DNA of 64,000 nt, taken from NCBI RefSeq assembly GCF_001278845.1, contig NZ_CP012590.1, forward strand, positions 3,472,001-3,536,000, read 5' to 3'. This document shows, one piece after another, positions 5,942-22,032 of the stretch (position 1 is the stretch's first letter; each line of letters opens with the position of its first letter). The notes under the pieces are model-generated. The model had not been told where the DNA came from and made no database searches. It worked only from the letters and a program-made list of their open reading frames with translations. The DNA comes from Actinomyces sp. oral taxon 414. Its GTDB lineage: Bacteria; Actinomycetota; Actinomycetes; Actinomycetales; Actinomycetaceae. The position numbers and the translations under genes are program-made.

Positions 5942-6778
5942 TCAGCCGGGCGGCGCCACCCGCCGCAGCCAGGCGTCGACGACGTCGTAGAAGCCGGCCG
6001 GGCGGGTGCGGCGCACGTCGTGCCCGGCGCCGGGCACGAGCGCCGTCTCCACGTGCGCATTGGCCAGGCGCTCCAGGACCTCCAGGCCGTCTCGACCCAC
6101 GCGCGCCGAGCCCGGGCGGTCCCCGGTGACCAGGAGGGTGGGCACCCCCAGGGCGGCCATGCCCTCCTCCCAGGCCACCGGCGGGGCGACGACGCCGGTG
6201 CGCAGCAGCCCGGCGTCCACGCGTTGGGAGGCCCACACGCCGGGCAGGACCTCGACGTCGGGTGCCTCGCCGCCGGCCAGGGCGCGCGCCGCCGCGGCGG
6301 CCGGGTCGGCGCACACGGCGGCGGCGGCCCGGGCGCGGGCGGCGCCGCGGGCGAGGAGCTCGGCGGGGGTGCGCGTGCCGTAGCGGGCCGGGTCGATGAG
6401 GACCAGGCCGCGGACGAGTCCAGGGCGCCGGGCGCCCACGACCATGGCGGTGGCCGCGCCCATGGAGTGGCCGATGAGCACCGGGGGCGGCGGCGCGACC
6501 AGACCCAGGGCGGCCCGGCCGCGCCGCTGGGCGTCGAGGTCCTCCAGGACGGCGACGACGTCGTCGACCAGGACCTGCCCGGCGCGTTCGAGTTCGGCGG
6601 GCGTCCAGCGCGGGGACAGGCCGTGACCGCGGGCGTCCACGGCGACCACCCGGTAGCCCCGGGCGGCCCAGTGGTCGATGGCGTCGGCCTGGGAGGCGGC
6701 CGAGGAGGTGATCCCGTGCAGGAGCACCAGGGCGGGGGCGTCGTCGGGCCCGACGACAATGCGGGCGAGATCGCTCAC
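5942..6778 (-). CDS. Alpha/beta-fold hydrolase
   Basis: A 278-residue hydrolase of the alpha/beta superfamily. The oxyanion loop region is LLHGITSSA, the nucleophile elbow is GHSMG (IGHSMGAATA), an acid is likely in LVTGDRPGS, and the catalytic histidine is in GAGHDVRRT near the C-terminus. It is soluble and has no signal peptide. The GTG at 6778 is chosen because GGAG lies at the right distance upstream and the family fold begins at once. It is paralogous to the protein at 10199-11212: both share HGIT-S-A, DARGHG-SPRW and GHSMG. The substrate is unknown. Confidence 0.85.
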   Translation of the reverse strand: MSDLARIVVGPDDAPALVLLHGITSSAASQADAIDHWAARGYRVVAVDARGHGLSPRWTPAELERAGQVLVDDVVAVLEDLDAQRRGRAALGLVAPPPPVLIGHSMGAATAMVVGARRPGLVRGLVLIDPARYGTRTPAELLARGAARARAAAAVCADPAAAAARALAGGEAPDVEVLPGVWASQRVDAGLLRTGVVAPPVAWEEGMAALGVPTLLVTGDRPGSARVGRDGLEVLERLANAHVETALVPGAGHDVRRTRPAGFYDVVDAWLRRVAPPG

Positions 6779-6876
6779 GGACGGCTCCTTGACTTCTGAA
6801 TTCCCCTTCGGAACGTGTCGAGCATAGGTCCGCCCGGCGTCCACCGCCCGCGCACCACGGGGCGCCGCCGCGCGGA

Positions 6877-6882
6877 TAGCCT
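6877..6882 (+). promoter_or_regulatory. -10 element TAGCCT of luxS (leaderless)
   Basis: TAGCCT ends 7 nt before the luxS ATG and no Shine-Dalgarno sequence lies between. The spacing would place the transcription start at or within a base of the start codon, as in the leaderless transcripts common in Actinobacteria. No convincing -35 is seen. Confidence 0.55.
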
Positions 6883-6889
6883 TGGGGCC

Positions 6890-7474
6890 ATGAGCCAGTA
6901 CACGCAGACCTCGGGACCGCGTATGAACGTCGAGTCCTTCAACCTCGACCACACGCGGGTGGCCGCGCCCTTCGTGCGGGTCGCCGACCGCAAGCGCCTG
7001 CCGGGCGGCGACGAACTGGTCAAGTACGACGTGCGCTTCTGCCAGCCTAACCGCGAGCACCTGGACATGCGGGCAGTGCACTCCATCGAGCACCTGACCG
7101 CCGAGCTCATGCGCAACCGCACCGACCGGCTCATCGACTTCGGGCCCATGGGCTGCCAGACCGGCTTCTACGCCCTGACCCTGGGGCTGGAGCCGGCCGA
7201 GTTCCTGCCGCTGCTGGAGGCGACCCTCCACGACATCCTGGGCGCCGACGAGGTGCCCGCCGCCAATGAGGTGCAGTGCGGCTGGGGCGCCAACCACTCC
7301 TTGGAGGCGGCGCAGGCGGCGGTGCGCGAATTCCTGGCGGCGCGCGACGAGTGGGAGGTCATCATCCCCGACGCCGGCCCCGGGGCGCCCGAGAATCCCG
7401 CCGGCCCCGCCGGCCCCGCCGACCCCGGCACCTCCAGCGTCCCCTCCGACCCCGAGCAGGGCGACCGGCCATGA
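6890..7474 (+). CDS. luxS: S-ribosylhomocysteine lyase LuxS
   Basis: LuxS splits S-ribosylhomocysteine into homocysteine and 4,5-dihydroxy-2,3-pentanedione, the precursor of autoinducer-2. The zinc ligands are H64 and H68 in the HSIEH motif and C130 in VQCGWG; the catalytic C89 sits in MGCQTG and E67 is present, so the enzyme should be active. The usual 150-160-residue fold is followed by a Pro/Gly/Ala-rich tail of about 30 residues (163-194) that is not part of the family. The ATG at 6890 has TAGCCT 7 nt upstream. It overlaps the next gene by ATGA. mtnN, the preceding enzyme of the pathway, is 3.9 kb downstream. Confidence 0.97.
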
Positions 7475-8388
7475 CGTCGCTGGAGCCGTCCTCCTACGGG
7501 GTCGTCGTCGTCCCGCAGAGCCCGACCCTCCTGCTCACCGTCCTCCTCCAGCCGGGGATGATGCTGCTGGCCTACCTCGTGGGCCGCCTGACCCGCCGGG
7601 TCCTGCGGCGCTGGCACACGACCCTGTCCTCCTCGGCGGCGACCCTCACGGCCCTGCTGGGCCTGTGGGGCGGGCTGGCCGTGGGGACCTGGGTCTTCAC
7701 GGAGGACTACCTGTGGGCGCCGCGCCTGCTGCTGTGCGCCCTCGCCTCCGCCGTGCTGGTCATCATCCTCACCTCCTTCGTCGCCACCTGGCTCCAGCGC
7801 GAGCCCGAGCTCGAGCCGATCGCGGTGGTGGCGGCCCGCGGGGAGTCGGCGACCCTGGAGTTCAAGTCCTCGGCGCGCGTCAATCTGCGCACCGGCAAGC
7901 GCGACGACGTCATCGAGACGGTCGCCGCCAAGACCGTGGCGGCCTTCCTCAACTCCCGCGGCGGCACCCTGCTGCTGGGTGTGGACGACGCCGGGCGCCT
8001 CATCGGGCTCGGCCCGGACTACACGACGCTGCGCCACGAGGACGCCGACCGCTACGAGCTCTTCCTGCGGGATCTGTGGCGCGTGCGCCTGGGGGCCAAT
8101 GCGGCGGCCCTGCCGCGCCTGGACTTCGCGCCGGCCGCCGACGGCGACGGCGAGGTCTGCCGGATCACCGTGCCGCCGTCGCCGGCGCCCGTGTACCTGT
8201 CCGGCCCCAAGGGCAAGGGCGGACGCGAGCTGTGGGTGCGGGCGGGCAACTCCACCCAGCGCCTGGAGGTGGATGACGCCGTGGCGTATGTGGCCCAGCG
8301 CTGGCCGCGCGAGGTGCGCCCGACGCTGCGCAGCCGATTCGGCGCCTACCTGCTCTACCACCGCCGCCCGGCCGACGCCCCCGAGTGA
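7471..8388 (+). CDS. Membrane-anchored AlbA_2 (Schlafen-type) domain protein
   Basis: A 305-residue protein with two or three N-terminal transmembrane helices (about residues 18-35, 48-72 and 78-105), then a soluble domain resembling the AlbA_2/divergent-AAA (Schlafen) fold. The signature is [14 protein letters not shown] followed by [27 protein letters not shown]. Family members are putative nucleic-acid-binding proteins; the membrane anchor is the unusual part. The ATG overlaps the luxS stop by 4 bp, so it is co-translated with luxS, but no functional link is known. The stop codon lies inside the first of several direct repeats. Confidence 0.75.
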
Positions 8389-15664: not shown

Positions 15665-16989
15665 CCAGGGGGTCGGCAAAGTCGGTTTAGGTGGTTGGTC
15701 GGGTGATCAGGTCGATGGCTCGTTCGGGGCGTGGGGCCATGGCTCTGGTGGTGGCGGCGATGGGGGCTCGGGGGCCGTGGAAGAGTCTGATGAGGCTGAT
15801 GGCGAGGTTGCGCAGGGCGGCCGAGACCAAAGGGTCCGTTGGCGGTGCGCAGCTGGTGGCGGTCCTCGCCCGTGACCACGTCTCGGATCCAGTGGAGGCG
15901 GTTCTCGATGGCCCAATGGTCCCGGGCCCAGGAGGCGACGGCCTCGGGCTGGGCCTGGTCCATGGGGAGGGAGCAGAACCGGGTGGACCACCTCGGTGGT
16001 CGTCGTCTTCTTCTTGGCCCTGCCGTTGCCGCCCGTGCTCCCGCGCTTCGCGGTGGTTGTGGTGCGTCTGATCCGCACCACCTGGGCGGCGCCGGACAAG
16101 TCGATCCACTCGGGGGCCTCGACGGCCTGGACGGTGCGCCGCACCCGCCTGCCGTGGCCGGTGTCGACGCTCGAGACGGCCGGGACGTCCTTCCAAGGGA
16201 GCTTCTTGAGCGTTTTGCGCAGGGTCTTCTGGTTCGCCTTGACCGTCAGGAGGTAGTGGGCGCCGCGGCTGCGGATCCACTCGGCCGTGCCGGTCTGGGT
16301 GTGCATGGCGTCTGCGGTGATCAGGGCCCCGTCCAGGTCCAGGGGGGCGAGCAGCTCGGGCAGGGCGGGGATCTCGTTGGACTCATCCGACACTCTGCGC
16401 TGCCCCACGACCACTCCGCTCGCCTGGTCCAGGGCCGCCAGGAGGTGGGGGGCCGGGTTGGAGCCGGTGCGGGCCCCGCGCATGGTCTCACCCGTCCACG
16501 GCGATCACCCTGCGGCCGGCGATGGTGCCGGTGCGGGTGAAGAACCAGGAGGTCAGGCGGGCGTCGAGGCCCGCGGGGTCCAGGTCCTTCAGCACCCGCC
16601 TGATCGTGGGCTCACTGGGCAGGGCCCGCCCCGCCTCCAGGCCCAGGGCCCCCAGGTCGGCCGGTTCCAGGTCGGCGGCGTGCTCCCATATCGCCGTCAG
16701 GCTCCGGCATCCCGCCAGTATCCCCGTCACGGCCAGGCACAGGATCGCGGGCAGGGTGTGGCGAACCCCGCGCCGGTCCCGCGGATCGGTCACGCCCTTC
16801 AGGACCTCCCTCAGGGGCTGGCGCGAGGGGGCGGTTGTGGTGGATGATGACATGGCGGCGCGACCCCCCGGCGGCGAGGATGACTAAAGACACCACCCAT
16901 CGTCCCGGCGGGGCCGCGCCGCACCCGCACCAACACGCCAGATCCCCCGGAGATCAGACAACCGGCCGTCGACTTTGCCGACCCCCTGG
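15665..16989 (-). mobile_element. ISAs1-family insertion sequence (decayed)
   Basis: CCAGGGGGTCGGCAAAGTCG at 15665 is repeated in inverted orientation at 16970-16989, giving an element of about 1.33 kb that encloses an ISAs1-type transposase on the minus strand. No clear target duplication is seen. It truncates the operon that starts at 14326. Confidence 0.7.
15687..16853 (-). pseudogene. ISAs1-family transposase, at least three frameshifts
   Basis: The N-terminus (from MSSSTTTAPSR) carries the typical DPRDRRGVRHTLPAILCLAV and PSEPTIRRVLKDLD. The expected AVDGKTMRGAR is split by a one-base gain at 16485-16495. The middle part has the catalytic context DGALITADAMHTQ and HYLLTVKANQKTL. A second shift near 15975 and a third near 15835 break the C-terminal half, which still reads as ARDHWAIENRLHWIRDVV and ALRNLAISLIRLFHG in other frames. 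The copy cannot make an intact transposase. Confidence 0.85.
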
Positions 16990-17081: not shown

Positions 17082-17433
17082 TCCAACGTGCAACACTCCC
17101 CGCACAGCCCGAAAAGAACCCGACCGTCCGGAAGCGCCCCCTGCCAAGAACCCCACCCGGGAAGGTTATTCTGGGGCGTCCGAGTGGGACTGGTGGGGCT
17201 CCTGGGGCAACCCGGGGCGGGGGGCTTGTCCAAATCTGCCACAAAGGCGCCCCGGGCCGGGATAGGTCGCGGAGGAAACCGCGGAACATCAACGATTCTT
17301 CTTGCGCACCCCGACTCGATCCGGGCCTTTGTGGCAGATTTAGACACGGACCGGGTCCGGACCGGGTCCGACTGGTCCCACGCGACCCGCGCACCCCATC
17401 TGTCTCAGGTTCCGCTTCTCGCCGCCCCTCCCG
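17082..17433 (+). repeat. 352-bp direct repeat, left copy (long target duplication)
   Basis: Nearly identical to 19133-19484 at an exact offset of 2051. It ends flush with the left end of the IS1634-type element. It contains an IS256-type end (from 17157) and one complete copy of the 118-bp MITE. Confidence 0.88.
17228..17345 (+). repeat. 118-bp MITE, copy 1
   Basis: Starts GTCCAAATCTGCCACAAAG and ends with its complement with one mismatch (CTTTGTGGCAGATTTAGAC). The 80-bp core is shared with the copies at 19279 and 32795. It has no coding capacity. Copies 1 and 2 come from one ancestral insertion, duplicated with the 352-bp repeat. Confidence 0.85.
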
Positions 17434-19132
17434 CCTGAGTCGTGCCAGTTTAGTGCCCCGGACCCAGATTGCTGAGGATTTGCTGTGCGGTTTCGGTGAG
17501 TTGGGGTTGGGCGGTGAGGCGGTGGCCGTTGACGTTGATGGTGACCTCTTGAAGTGGTCTGAGTTCGCGGACGAGTCGCTTGATGCTCATCCCGGTGGCC
17601 TGTTGCAGGTGGCGGGCGACGGCCAGGGAGGCCATCACGACGGTCAGGTGGGCCTCGATCGCGTCGCGGGTGCGGTGGAAGATCGGGCGGGTTCTCAGGT
17701 CGTGCTCGGGTCATGCGGAACGACTGCTCCACGTGCCACAGCTCGTGGTAGGAGGCGATCACCTCGTCGGCCCCCATGACGCCGGCGGGGATGTTGCTCA
17801 CGTAGCCCTTCAGGCCCGCCATGCGCCTGGCGCGGGCCAGTGCGGCCTCGTCGACCACCTGGTCGCCCCGGTGAGTGGCGGGCGAACCGGGTCCCCCTGG
17901 GGCGCCTCCGGCCGGCGACCACCGCCCTGGCCCTGCTCTCCTGGGCCGTGAGCGTCTTGCTGTCGCGGGCGAACCTCTTGGCGGAGTAGACCCATACGGC
18001 CCGCCACGAACCCGGATGAGTGGCGGGGTCCCACACCGGCTCATCGCGGAGGTTCTCGTCCCTCTCGGCGCAGCGGCCACCGCGTCTGGGGGTGATGGTG
18101 TCGATGATCTGCCCGTCGGCGAGGACGTCGCCGTGGAACCGGAAGTGGGCCGCCAGGTCGACGGGGGCCCTGGTCATGCGCGAACCCACGATGAAGCCCA
18201 CGCCCGCCTCATCCAGGGCCGCCAGATTGGCGGCCGACAGCATGCCGGCGTCCGCCACGACCACCAAGTGCTCGATCCCGGCCGAGCGCACGAACTCCCG
18301 GACGACCGGCACGATGGTGGTCGTTTCGGCCCTGTCGCCCTCCCAACAGCCGATCCGCAGGGGGAAGCCGCCCCGGTCCACCAGCAGACCCACGATGATC
18401 TGCGGATCGACCCTGCGCTCCTTGGCAGTCACCGACCCTGCGCAGGTCGTCCTCCTTGTCGGCCTCGAAGTACAAGGTGGTCACGCCTGCAGGCACAGGC
18501 TCAGGTCACCGCCCCCGGTGACGCGGGACAGACAGGCCGCCGCGATCCCGGCGCGCCAGTCGCGCTCGACGCAGCGGGCCAGGGACCGGAACAAGGAGCG
18601 CCTGGCCACCGGCCGGACACCGAGCTCACCGATCACGCGGGGGACCTGCTCCTTGCTGGTGGGCTCGACGCAGCGGGCCAACGCCATCTGCTTGAAGCCC
18701 TCGTCCCCGCCCACCGCCTCACCCAGCCCCAGGCGCTCGTACGCCCCGGACAACGCATCCCACAACAGGGCGCAGCGCTTGGAGTCGACCACCGCGCCCG
18801 CGACGCAGGCCCCGGCGCCCAGGGACTCAAGATCCAGGGCCGCCTGCCCCGACAGTGCGGTGATCCTGTCGCGTCCGGCCCGCACCAGAACGGCCAGCTC
18901 CGCCTCGTCATGGGCCGAGCCCAGGTGCTCCACGATCCGCCGCACCCCGTGCTCCTTGGCCACGATCTGCACGGCCGTGGCTCCCGAAGCGGTGCGCACC
19001 TTCCGGACGAACGGGCTCACACCCCCACCCTACAACCACCCATTAGTGCTCCGCACCCACCACCCCGACCGCACCACGCCAACGAAAAGCCCCCATCACG
19101 ACGCGACGTCGCCAAAACTGGCACGAGTCAGG
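17434..19132 (-). mobile_element. IS1634-family insertion sequence (decayed)
   Basis: The ends CCTGAGTCGTGCCAGTTT (left) and CCTGACTCGTGCCAGTTTT (right, read inward) form imperfect terminal inverted repeats around a minus-strand IS1634-type transposase. The element is about 1.7 kb. The 352 bp on its left is repeated immediately on its right, with both copies abutting the IS ends. Long variable target duplications are a known trait of this group (IS1549, IS1634). Confidence 0.85.
17450..19020 (-). pseudogene. IS1634-family transposase, multiple frameshifts
   Basis: The N-terminus MSPFVRKVRTASGATAVQIV and IEHLGSAHDEAEL style (here VEHLGSAHDEAELAVL) is typical of the family. The body continues in other frames: CWEGDRAETTTIVPVV with VVVADAGMLSAANLAAL (DDE region), then VSNIPAGVMGADEVIASYHELWHVEQSFRM and a C-terminus ending SNLGPGH. 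Breaks near 18485, 18440, 17900 and 17690 separate the pieces, so no full product is possible. Confidence 0.85.
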
Positions 19133-19484
19133 TCCAACGTGCAACACTCCCCGCACAGCCCGAAAAGAACCCGACCGTCCGGAAGCGCCCCCTGCCAAGA
19201 ACCCCACCCGGGAAGGTTATTCTGGGGCGTCCGAGTGGGACTGGTGGGGCTCCTGGGGCAACCCGGGGCGGGGGGCTTGTCCAAATCTGCCACAAAGGCG
19301 CCCCGGGCCGGGATAGGTCGCGGAGGAAACCGCGGAACATCAACGATTCTTCTTGCGCACCCCGACTCGATTGGGGCCTTTGTGGCAGATTTGGACACGG
19401 ACCGGGTCCGGACCGGGTCCGACTGGTCCCACGCGACCCGCGCGCCCCATCTGTCTCAGGTTCCGCTTCTCGCCGCCCCTCCCG
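19133..19484 (+). repeat. 352-bp direct repeat, right copy (long target duplication)
   Basis: Second copy of 17082-17433. It begins exactly at the right end of the IS1634-type element and differs from the left copy by only a few bases, for example GATTGGGG for GATCCGGG near 19370. Confidence 0.88.
19279..19396 (+). repeat. 118-bp MITE, copy 2
   Basis: Identical in layout to copy 1, with perfect 19-bp terminal inverted repeats (GTCCAAATCTGCCACAAAG). It exists because the surrounding 352 bp was duplicated when the IS1634-type element inserted. Confidence 0.85.
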
Positions 19485-19861
19485 GGGCCGAACATGGCGC
19501 CCCGGGAGGATCGTTCCGGGGCGCACCCGACTGCGAGGCCATCAGAACCGCGCAATCATGCGGAAACCGACGGACACACCCGGGGCGGGGGCCCGAACGA
19601 TCCTCCCAGGACGCCAGAATCGGGTCCGGGCCCTGGGCCCCGCTCGCCCCCGACCCCGCCACGGAGCGCCCGTGCAACAGATTCGGACACACCCCGCCCC
19701 ACAAGCCCCATACACCCCACTCAAACACACCCAGAATAACCTTCCCGGGAATCCGCCCCGCAGGAGACCACCCCCACCGCGCTGATCCCCCCCCGCGCCG
19801 TCACCGCCGTCACACTGGTCGGGAAAAGCTCAGCCGCGGTTCGAGCCACCGCCGTCGGAGT
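19485..19861. other. Non-coding remainder of the mobile region
   Basis: No gene is seen. It holds an inverted repeat GGGAGGATCGTTC (about 19504) / GAACGATCCTCCC (about 19596) and the right end of the IS256-type remnant. The thiamine-binding gene ends at its right edge. Confidence 0.6.
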
Positions 19862-21028: not shown

Positions 21029-22032
21029 GGCGTGTTGCGTAAGTCGGGTGGGGGCGGCGTGGCGTGCCGGGCGGGGCGAGGCCCTCGGGGTATCACGGGT
21101 GGTGTGAAATCGAATCGCGATACCGGCGAAGGCCTCGGATGACGAGTATAGACGCATCCGCCCGCCATGATCTGACCGATGCCCAGTGGGCGCTGCTCGA
21201 GCCACTGCTGCCCGCCCCTCCGGTGCGGGGCAGGCCCCGCCGCTACCCGCTGCGCGCCATGATCGACGCCGTGCGGTGGCGCACCCGGGTCGGGGCGCCC
21301 TGGCGCGACGTGCCGGCCCGCTACGGGCCCTGGTGGAGGGCGTACGCCCTGTACCGCGCCTGGCAGTTGAACGGGGTGTGGGAGCGCATCGAGGCGGCCC
21401 TGGTCGCCCGGGCCGACGCCGCCGGGAAGATCGACTGGCGGGTGTCGGTGGACTCCACCGCCGTGCGCGCCCACGTCCACGCCGCCGGGGCCCGCGGGGA
21501 CAGCGTCGAGCGCGTGGAGGGGGAGCCGGACGACCACGCCCTGGGACGGTCCCGGGGCGGATGGGGCACCAAGATCCACGCCGCCGTCGAGGCCGGCCTC
21601 GGAGTGATGTCCCTGCTGCTCACGGCCGGGCAGGCGGGGGACTGCCCCATGATGATCCCCGTGCTGGAGGCGATCAGTGTCAAACGGCCCGCCCGCGGAC
21701 GGCCCCGCACCCGCCCGGACCGGGTTCTGGCGGACAGGGCCTACTCCTCCAGGGCCAACCGGGACTGGCTGCGCGCCCACCACATCCGCGCCACGATCCC
21801 GGTCAAGGCCGACCAGGCCGCCAACCGCCGCCGACGCGGCGGCGCCGGGGGCAGACCGCCCGCCTTCGACCCCGACGTCTACAAGGACCGCAACGCCGTC
21901 GAGCGCGGCTTCAGCCGCCTCAAGCACAACCGCGGTCTGGCCACCAGGTACGACAAGCTCGCCGTCCGATACCGGACCACCACCCGCATCGCCGCCATCG
22001 ACCACTGGCTCAAACGACTTACATAACACGCC
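21029..22032 (+). mobile_element. IS5-family insertion sequence, apparently intact
   Basis: The ends GGCGTGTTGCGTAAGTCG and, inverted, GGCGTGTTATGTAAGTCG give 18-bp terminal repeats with two mismatches. CTAG flanks both sides (21025-21028 and 22033-22036), a target type used by IS5-group elements. It encloses one full-length transposase gene and is 1004 bp. Confidence 0.88.
21139..22026 (+). CDS. IS5-family transposase
   Basis: A 295-residue transposase (from MTSIDASARHDLTDAQWALL). N-terminal DUF4096-type pattern LEPLLPAPP, then RVGAPWRDVPARYGPWW; the DDE residues are in WRVSVDSTAVRAH, VLADRAYSSRANR and KDRNAVERGFSRLKHNRGLATRYDKLA. The frame is open from end to end and all catalytic motifs are present, so it is likely functional. 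The ATG at 21139 is chosen; a longer in-frame start at 21064 exists near the IS end. Confidence 0.92.
   Translation: MTSIDASARHDLTDAQWALLEPLLPAPPVRGRPRRYPLRAMIDAVRWRTRVGAPWRDVPARYGPWWRAYALYRAWQLNGVWERIEAALVARADAAGKIDWRVSVDSTAVRAHVHAAGARGDSVERVEGEPDDHALGRSRGGWGTKIHAAVEAGLGVMSLLLTAGQAGDCPMMIPVLEAISVKRPARGRPRTRPDRVLADRAYSSRANRDWLRAHHIRATIPVKADQAANRRRRGGAGGRPPAFDPDVYKDRNAVERGFSRLKHNRGLATRYDKLAVRYRTTTRIAAIDHWLKRLT

Follow-up and report, generated by a model that had tools for sequence, protein, structure and literature searches.

The two 352-bp direct repeats that flank an IS1634-family insertion sequence in the window, by which we mean the whole stretch of 64,000 nucleotides of Actinomyces sp. 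oral taxon 414 DNA analyzed here, are very probably a target-site duplication made when that element transposed. The junctions of its relatives point, with a probability of about 0.5, to a one-end-specific mechanism for such long duplications, in which one end of the insertion sequence (IS) would be joined at a preferred site and the other at a distant, poorly matching one.

The insertion sequence and its flanking repeats

The left copy of the repeat (17082..17433, forward strand) stops at the base before the IS starts at 17434, and the right copy (19133..19484, forward strand) has its first base immediately after the last base of the IS at 19132. The first-pass annotation had claimed just such a repeat, with borders coinciding with the ends of the IS, and mapping upheld both statements: the two copies align without gaps and are identical at 348 of 352 positions, the four substitutions (left versus right) being CC versus TG at 17321/22, A versus G at 17342 and A versus G at 17393. 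A chance match is excluded by the flank-to-flank comparison (E 3e-179). Measured from the outer end of one inverted repeat to the outer end of the other, the IS is 1,699 bp long, and its 18-bp terminal inverted repeats, which have one mismatch, lie at 17434..17451 (starting CCTGA) and 19115..19132 (finishing TCAGG), both read on the forward strand. The first five bases of the right copy, TCCAA (19133..19137, forward strand), fit a TNNNA target pattern, and the opposite junction (17429-17433) is CGGGA when read outward. Neighboring genes encode an ISAs1-family transposase in two frames at 15707-16853 (27.6 and 103.2 bits, cut-off 70) and an IS5-family transposase at 21064-22026 (246.3 bits).

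The assignment to the IS1634 family, also made in the first-pass annotation, is borne out by the element's own transposase, which is encoded on the minus strand of 17434..19132 and split into several frames. Its middle piece (17695..18432, minus strand) scores 129.7 bits against NF033559, for which the cut-off is 100, and 22.1 bits against DDE_Tnp_1, slightly below the Pfam cut-off of 23. The N-terminal piece, 179 aa long (18481..19020, minus strand), reaches 42.9 bits against NF033559, below the cut-off, and the transposase of an intact relative (L069) reaches 398.5 bits. The length of the IS falls within the 1,500-2,000 bp given for the family in the table of De Palmenaer et al. (PMC2266710), and the same table gives the terminal bases as C-----YT; the window ends, CCTGA(G/C)TC, fit this pattern at the first C and at the Y in position 7 but not at the T in position 8. 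Many relatives end CCTGACTT or CCTGAGTT, which fit it.

A second copy and its empty site

A second copy of the IS in the same genome (G000:C1:1255331-1257029; L008 8832-10530) differs from the window IS at 0 of 1,699 positions, and the transposase reading frame is therefore broken alike in both. Because the two copies share the same broken frames, it seems that a defective element was mobilized, presumably by transposase from elsewhere, or else the copies have been homogenized. Direct repeats adjoin the second copy too, 706 bp long on one side and 765 bp on the other (684 identities in 768 alignment columns, with 65 gap columns, 62 of them in one indel). Comparison of another genomic copy had been proposed as a check on the claim that transposition produced the long target duplication, and the claim gains support from it: besides the exact abutment in the window, the second copy is flanked directly by a duplication of its own that differs in length.

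Two genes reach into the repeats at the second copy, trpA with its 3' half and a LuxR-type response-regulator gene with its 3' end; we named both by reading their translations, without a profile. Intact open frames of both genes persist beside the duplication, and IS insertions with a long duplication can thus spare genes, as this one has. The trpA region of G005, the nearest there of 49 genomes of the genus and probably Actinomyces dentalis DSM 19115, lacks the IS. The window species is close to G005, since the two genomes are 95-98% identical around trpA and 90-95% identical in the remaining aligned stretches of 300 bases or more; synteny with G005 is lost in the left flank of the window locus. 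As with IS1549 and IS1634, then, duplication length differs between copies of the element (352 and 706/765 bp in this genome), and at the empty site, seen in G005 for the second copy, the sequence is present once.

The second-copy repeats differ by 22 substitutions, 17 of which can be polarized by G005; the copy with the truncated trpA (L008 8067-8831) carries the derived base at 15 of these 17 and the other copy at 2. This looks like the ordinary, unequally constrained divergence expected of a released duplicate, and with 15 of 17 changes on the truncated-trpA copy we see no need for mutagenic synthesis during transposition. A further unequal duplication pair occurs at L182 (6 of 287).

The dispersed element at the window target

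Inverted ends, GGAAGGTTATTC...GAATAACCTTCC, bound a dispersed element of about 540 bp that lies complete at about 19206-19749 (forward strand); its left part alone is repeated on the other side of the IS at about 17155-17433. The left 352-bp copy accordingly consists of about 73 bp of locus-specific flank and the left 280 bp or so of this element. Positions 73-352 of the repeat are found again at many genomic sites; among the matches listed, none besides the two copies themselves begins before position 70. Paralogues of the interrupted element each stand singly and unbroken, and on both grounds we take the two 352-bp copies to derive from one locus. The first-pass annotation had stated that a 118-bp MITE was doubled in the process, which is right insofar as a portion of a dispersed element lies in the repeat, but the 118 bp are only the central palindrome of the 540-bp element.

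The element occurs in many places in the genome, in several near-full-length copies and as a shorter relative of about 190 bp, and it falls into two haplotype groups. The 14 long copies L012-L025 comprise seven with CC..A, five with TG..G and two of mixed type (L032 duplicates L013 in this comparison). Three of the four differences between the 352-bp copies are these two haplotypes, and the fourth occurs in the left copy alone. The simplest cause of the haplotype differences would be gene conversion that followed the duplication, and mutagenic synthesis is not needed for the window copies either, as the haplotypes of the element account for their differences.

Duplication lengths among related elements

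Relatives were gathered by DNA and protein searches in 49 genus and 213 family genomes. We mapped their ends through CCTGA-like inverted repeats and then measured the abutting repeat, comparing about 4-6 kb of flank for most elements; we kept rows in which at least 12 of 16 end bases matched, and hits without mappable ends (15 in one mapping, 8 in another) were left out. Set 1 comprises 92 elements, 73 with a duplication. Set 2, drawn from the 80 top loci in a scan of named genomes and 12 further loci, comprises 74 elements, 43 with a duplication, after removal of three repeats of set 1 and of L215, which occupies the same site as another row. Since the 12 were picked from 55 mostly for their CCTGA-like ends, set 2 cannot serve to estimate how frequent long duplications are across the family.

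Together, 116 of 166 mapped elements have an abutting duplication. The lengths are 4-5 bp in 24 cases, 8 bp in one, 15-100 bp in 49, 101-300 bp in 31 and 301-1000 bp in 11, with none above 1000 bp. The two copies are identical in 77 of the 92 long duplications (8-971 bp). The longest identical pair measures 937 bp (L179), and the longest of all, 971 bp at L073, is 95% identical and may represent exchange between paralogues. Short and long duplications accompany nearly identical copies of one IS: six copies in G027 that differ by 0-1 bases have duplications of 5, 5, 5, 47, 57 and 67 bp, and four in G039, also differing by 0-1 bases, have 5, 5, 5 and 21 bp. Fifty of the 166 elements have no duplication, although 15 of these 50 have a flank of less than 200 bases and some have doubtful ends.

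Elements with other end types, whose ends are provisional, have duplications of 4-6 bp at L216, L219, L222, L233, L238, L242, L255, L259 and L261 and of 45 bp at L265. We do not claim that long duplications are restricted to one clade. A transposase tree made by a quick method, in which some rows are probably on the wrong strand, was excluded from the evidence.

One locus, L072 (G025; IS at 6001-7697), has a right flank that opens with 15 bases that also open the flank of the IS at L074, an element one base different from the L072 IS. The first 8 of these bases (TCGGGCGC) are foreign to the local repeat and the remainder, CGCGCCA, is common to it, so that some donor flank, a few bases long, appears to have been carried along and joined at a microhomology.

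Junction sequences

The 22 five-bp duplications form a TCWGA palindrome (T 66%, C 82%, W 78%, G 82%, A 66%). In the long insertions, T at +1 together with A at +5 is found at 49 of 174 single junctions, against 0-4 of 174 for the same pair in seven shifted frames. These and the following junction counts omit L008, whose copies are unequal, and the count of 174 also omits five rows added later. The A at +5 cannot mirror the T of the other end, because in these insertions the other end is far away, and the full 5-bp site thus seems to be recognized at one junction.

We scored junctions with a matrix built solely from the five-bp class. The two scores of one long insertion are anticorrelated (rho -0.59, p 1e-9, 89 elements), similarly in the two separately collected sets (-0.57 in set 1, -0.61 in set 2), and at 23 control offsets rho is at most 0.22 in size. 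If an end is called good when its junction scores above zero, exactly one good end is present in 60 of 89 long insertions (41.6 expected), two in 3 (12.2 expected) and none in 26 (35.2 expected). The better end is the one at the transposase 5' side in 46 of 90 elements and the one at the 3' side in the other 44, all 90 oriented by their transposase. Long-insertion junctions have a mean score of -2.2 overall, and even their better ends are weaker than the 5-bp sites (mean 1.7 versus 4.4 bits); with this weakness, and with 26 of 89 insertions having no good end, the specific end is a tendency and not a strict rule.

Just outside the duplication, junctions of the long class favor C at -2 and G at -1, and the 5-bp class has the C at -2 without a preference for G at -1. 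Several other regularities did not persuade us. Odd lengths are in excess at 10-100 bp in set 1 (23 of 27), a trend that set 2 (13 of 22) does not clearly repeat; for lengths above 100 bp the counts are 16 of 28 and 3 of 14. Periods of 2 and 3 in the pooled lengths of 10-200 bp (p 0.006 and 0.003) were picked post hoc among 22 periods. Identity of left -2 with right +2 in 54% of cases (35% expected, z 4.2) is matched by two unrelated position pairs, which reach z 4.1 and 4.6. We claim none of the three.

How the long duplications may arise

We propose that one transposase has two modes of insertion, a view to which we give about an even chance. The concerted mode would produce 5-bp duplications at TCWGA. 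In the uncoupled mode, the transposase would join either IS end to a weaker version of that site, much as it does in an ordinary 5-bp insertion. The second end would skip the partner position 5 bp off and attach to the other strand, the one that gives a duplication, 15 to about 1,000 bp away, where the sequence bears little resemblance to the preferred site. The separated strands would then be filled in, perhaps with the help of a passing replication fork, and the interval would become the duplication. At the window locus the specific end would be that at the TCCAA junction (19133), and the displaced one that at the 17433 junction. The strand separation and the involvement of a fork are inference on our part; a fork setting appears plausible in view of the ceiling near 1 kb and the reported binding of a family member to the beta clamp. 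If the proposal is true, the junctions of most long insertions record which IS end went first.

A version of this explanation, not its opposite, would have the IS ends join sister arms of a fork at different positions, leaving one product duplicated and the other deleted. It could account for the two sites, the ceiling near 1 kb and the copies with no duplication, which may be deletion counterparts or the result of later rearrangements. Thirty elements of the latter kind combine CCTGA/CCCGA ends with 30 or more bases on each side; exactly one end is good in 18 of them, which suits this version, both in 7 and neither in 5. The reported binding of an IS1634-family transposase to the beta clamp (PMC4549789) suits it as well. 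However, coupling between the two ends of these 30 elements falls short of significance (rho -0.15, p 0.43), deletions are not demonstrated (for L096, the one case tried with both flanks, none of the others among the 49 genus genomes had the two flanks together), and sister-duplex joining alone does not predict that a specific end should be paired with an unspecific one. We hold it to be possible, if rather unlikely.

A single very long staggered cut, the strands being cut n bp apart with no separate choice of site for each end, would formally give the same product, with a duplication wherever both flanks were matched. It predicts that site quality at the two junctions is uncoupled, contrary to the anticorrelation that vanishes at the control offsets, and the lengths show no clear helical phasing (p 0.1 for a 10.5-bp period), so we think it improbable. 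Still less probable is that two ordinary 5-bp insertions occurred independently near each other in sister chromosomes or strains and that a crossover between the IS copies then connected one insertion's left flank to the other's right flank, leaving a duplication or a deletion. Such recombination would yield exact abutment and any length, identical IS copies are present in several genomes and elements with no duplication exist, but it requires two insertions less than 1 kb apart for most copies, and it predicts two independent ends of about 4.4 bits each, not the low mean, the strong anticorrelation and the scarcity of doubly good insertions that we observe. The one-good-end pattern is in this sense a quantitative constraint, one that argues against both recombined double insertions and a plain, undirected stagger. 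That the IS merely sits between two distinct copies of a dispersed repeat brought together by paralogue exchange is the least credible reading, for although the window target is a dispersed element and the L073 repeats (970 bp, 95%) lie in transposase-like reading frames with clustered differences, about 70 bp of the window repeat have no other match listed in the genome, which refutes it for the window copy, the repeat at trpA is matched at length solely at that locus in G000, and most long duplications are identical pairs.

Comparison with known systems

Long and variable duplications are already known in this family, as the first-pass annotation had correctly stated. IS1549 of Mycobacterium smegmatis and IS1634 of Mycoplasma mycoides are described as having direct repeats of 8-514 bp that depend on the copy (De Palmenaer et al. 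2008, PMC2266710), and in view of that report the window locus adds another case. The same paper states that no mechanistic model for the variable duplications had been proposed so far, and we recognized none in the open-licence literature searched. Nor did we see there, including in the portions consulted of PMC2266710, PMC4549789 and PMC10359463, a two-mode pattern with one good end. An Acidiphilium transposase of the same family as the window IS is reported to bind the beta clamp (PMC4549789), a paper whose main text contains neither "direct repeat" nor "target site duplication". The comparison of some 90 long duplications and the coupling of their junctions suggest themselves as what is new here.

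The window IS thus resembles IS1549 and IS1634 in family and in its long direct repeats of variable length. Set 1 goes beyond the range of 8-514 bp with six duplications (547-971 bp) and set 2 with one (738 bp), and, as far as those elements are described in PMC2266710, our collection differs further in that copies of the same IS also form a 5-bp class and that the long insertions usually have one specific end. With the typical members of the family, given 5-6 bp repeats in that paper, our elements share the transposase family, the size and the 5-bp class. The targets of those members are described there as AT-rich tracts of 5-6 bp, whereas here the 5-bp class has TCWGA as its site and makes up a minority of the elements collected.
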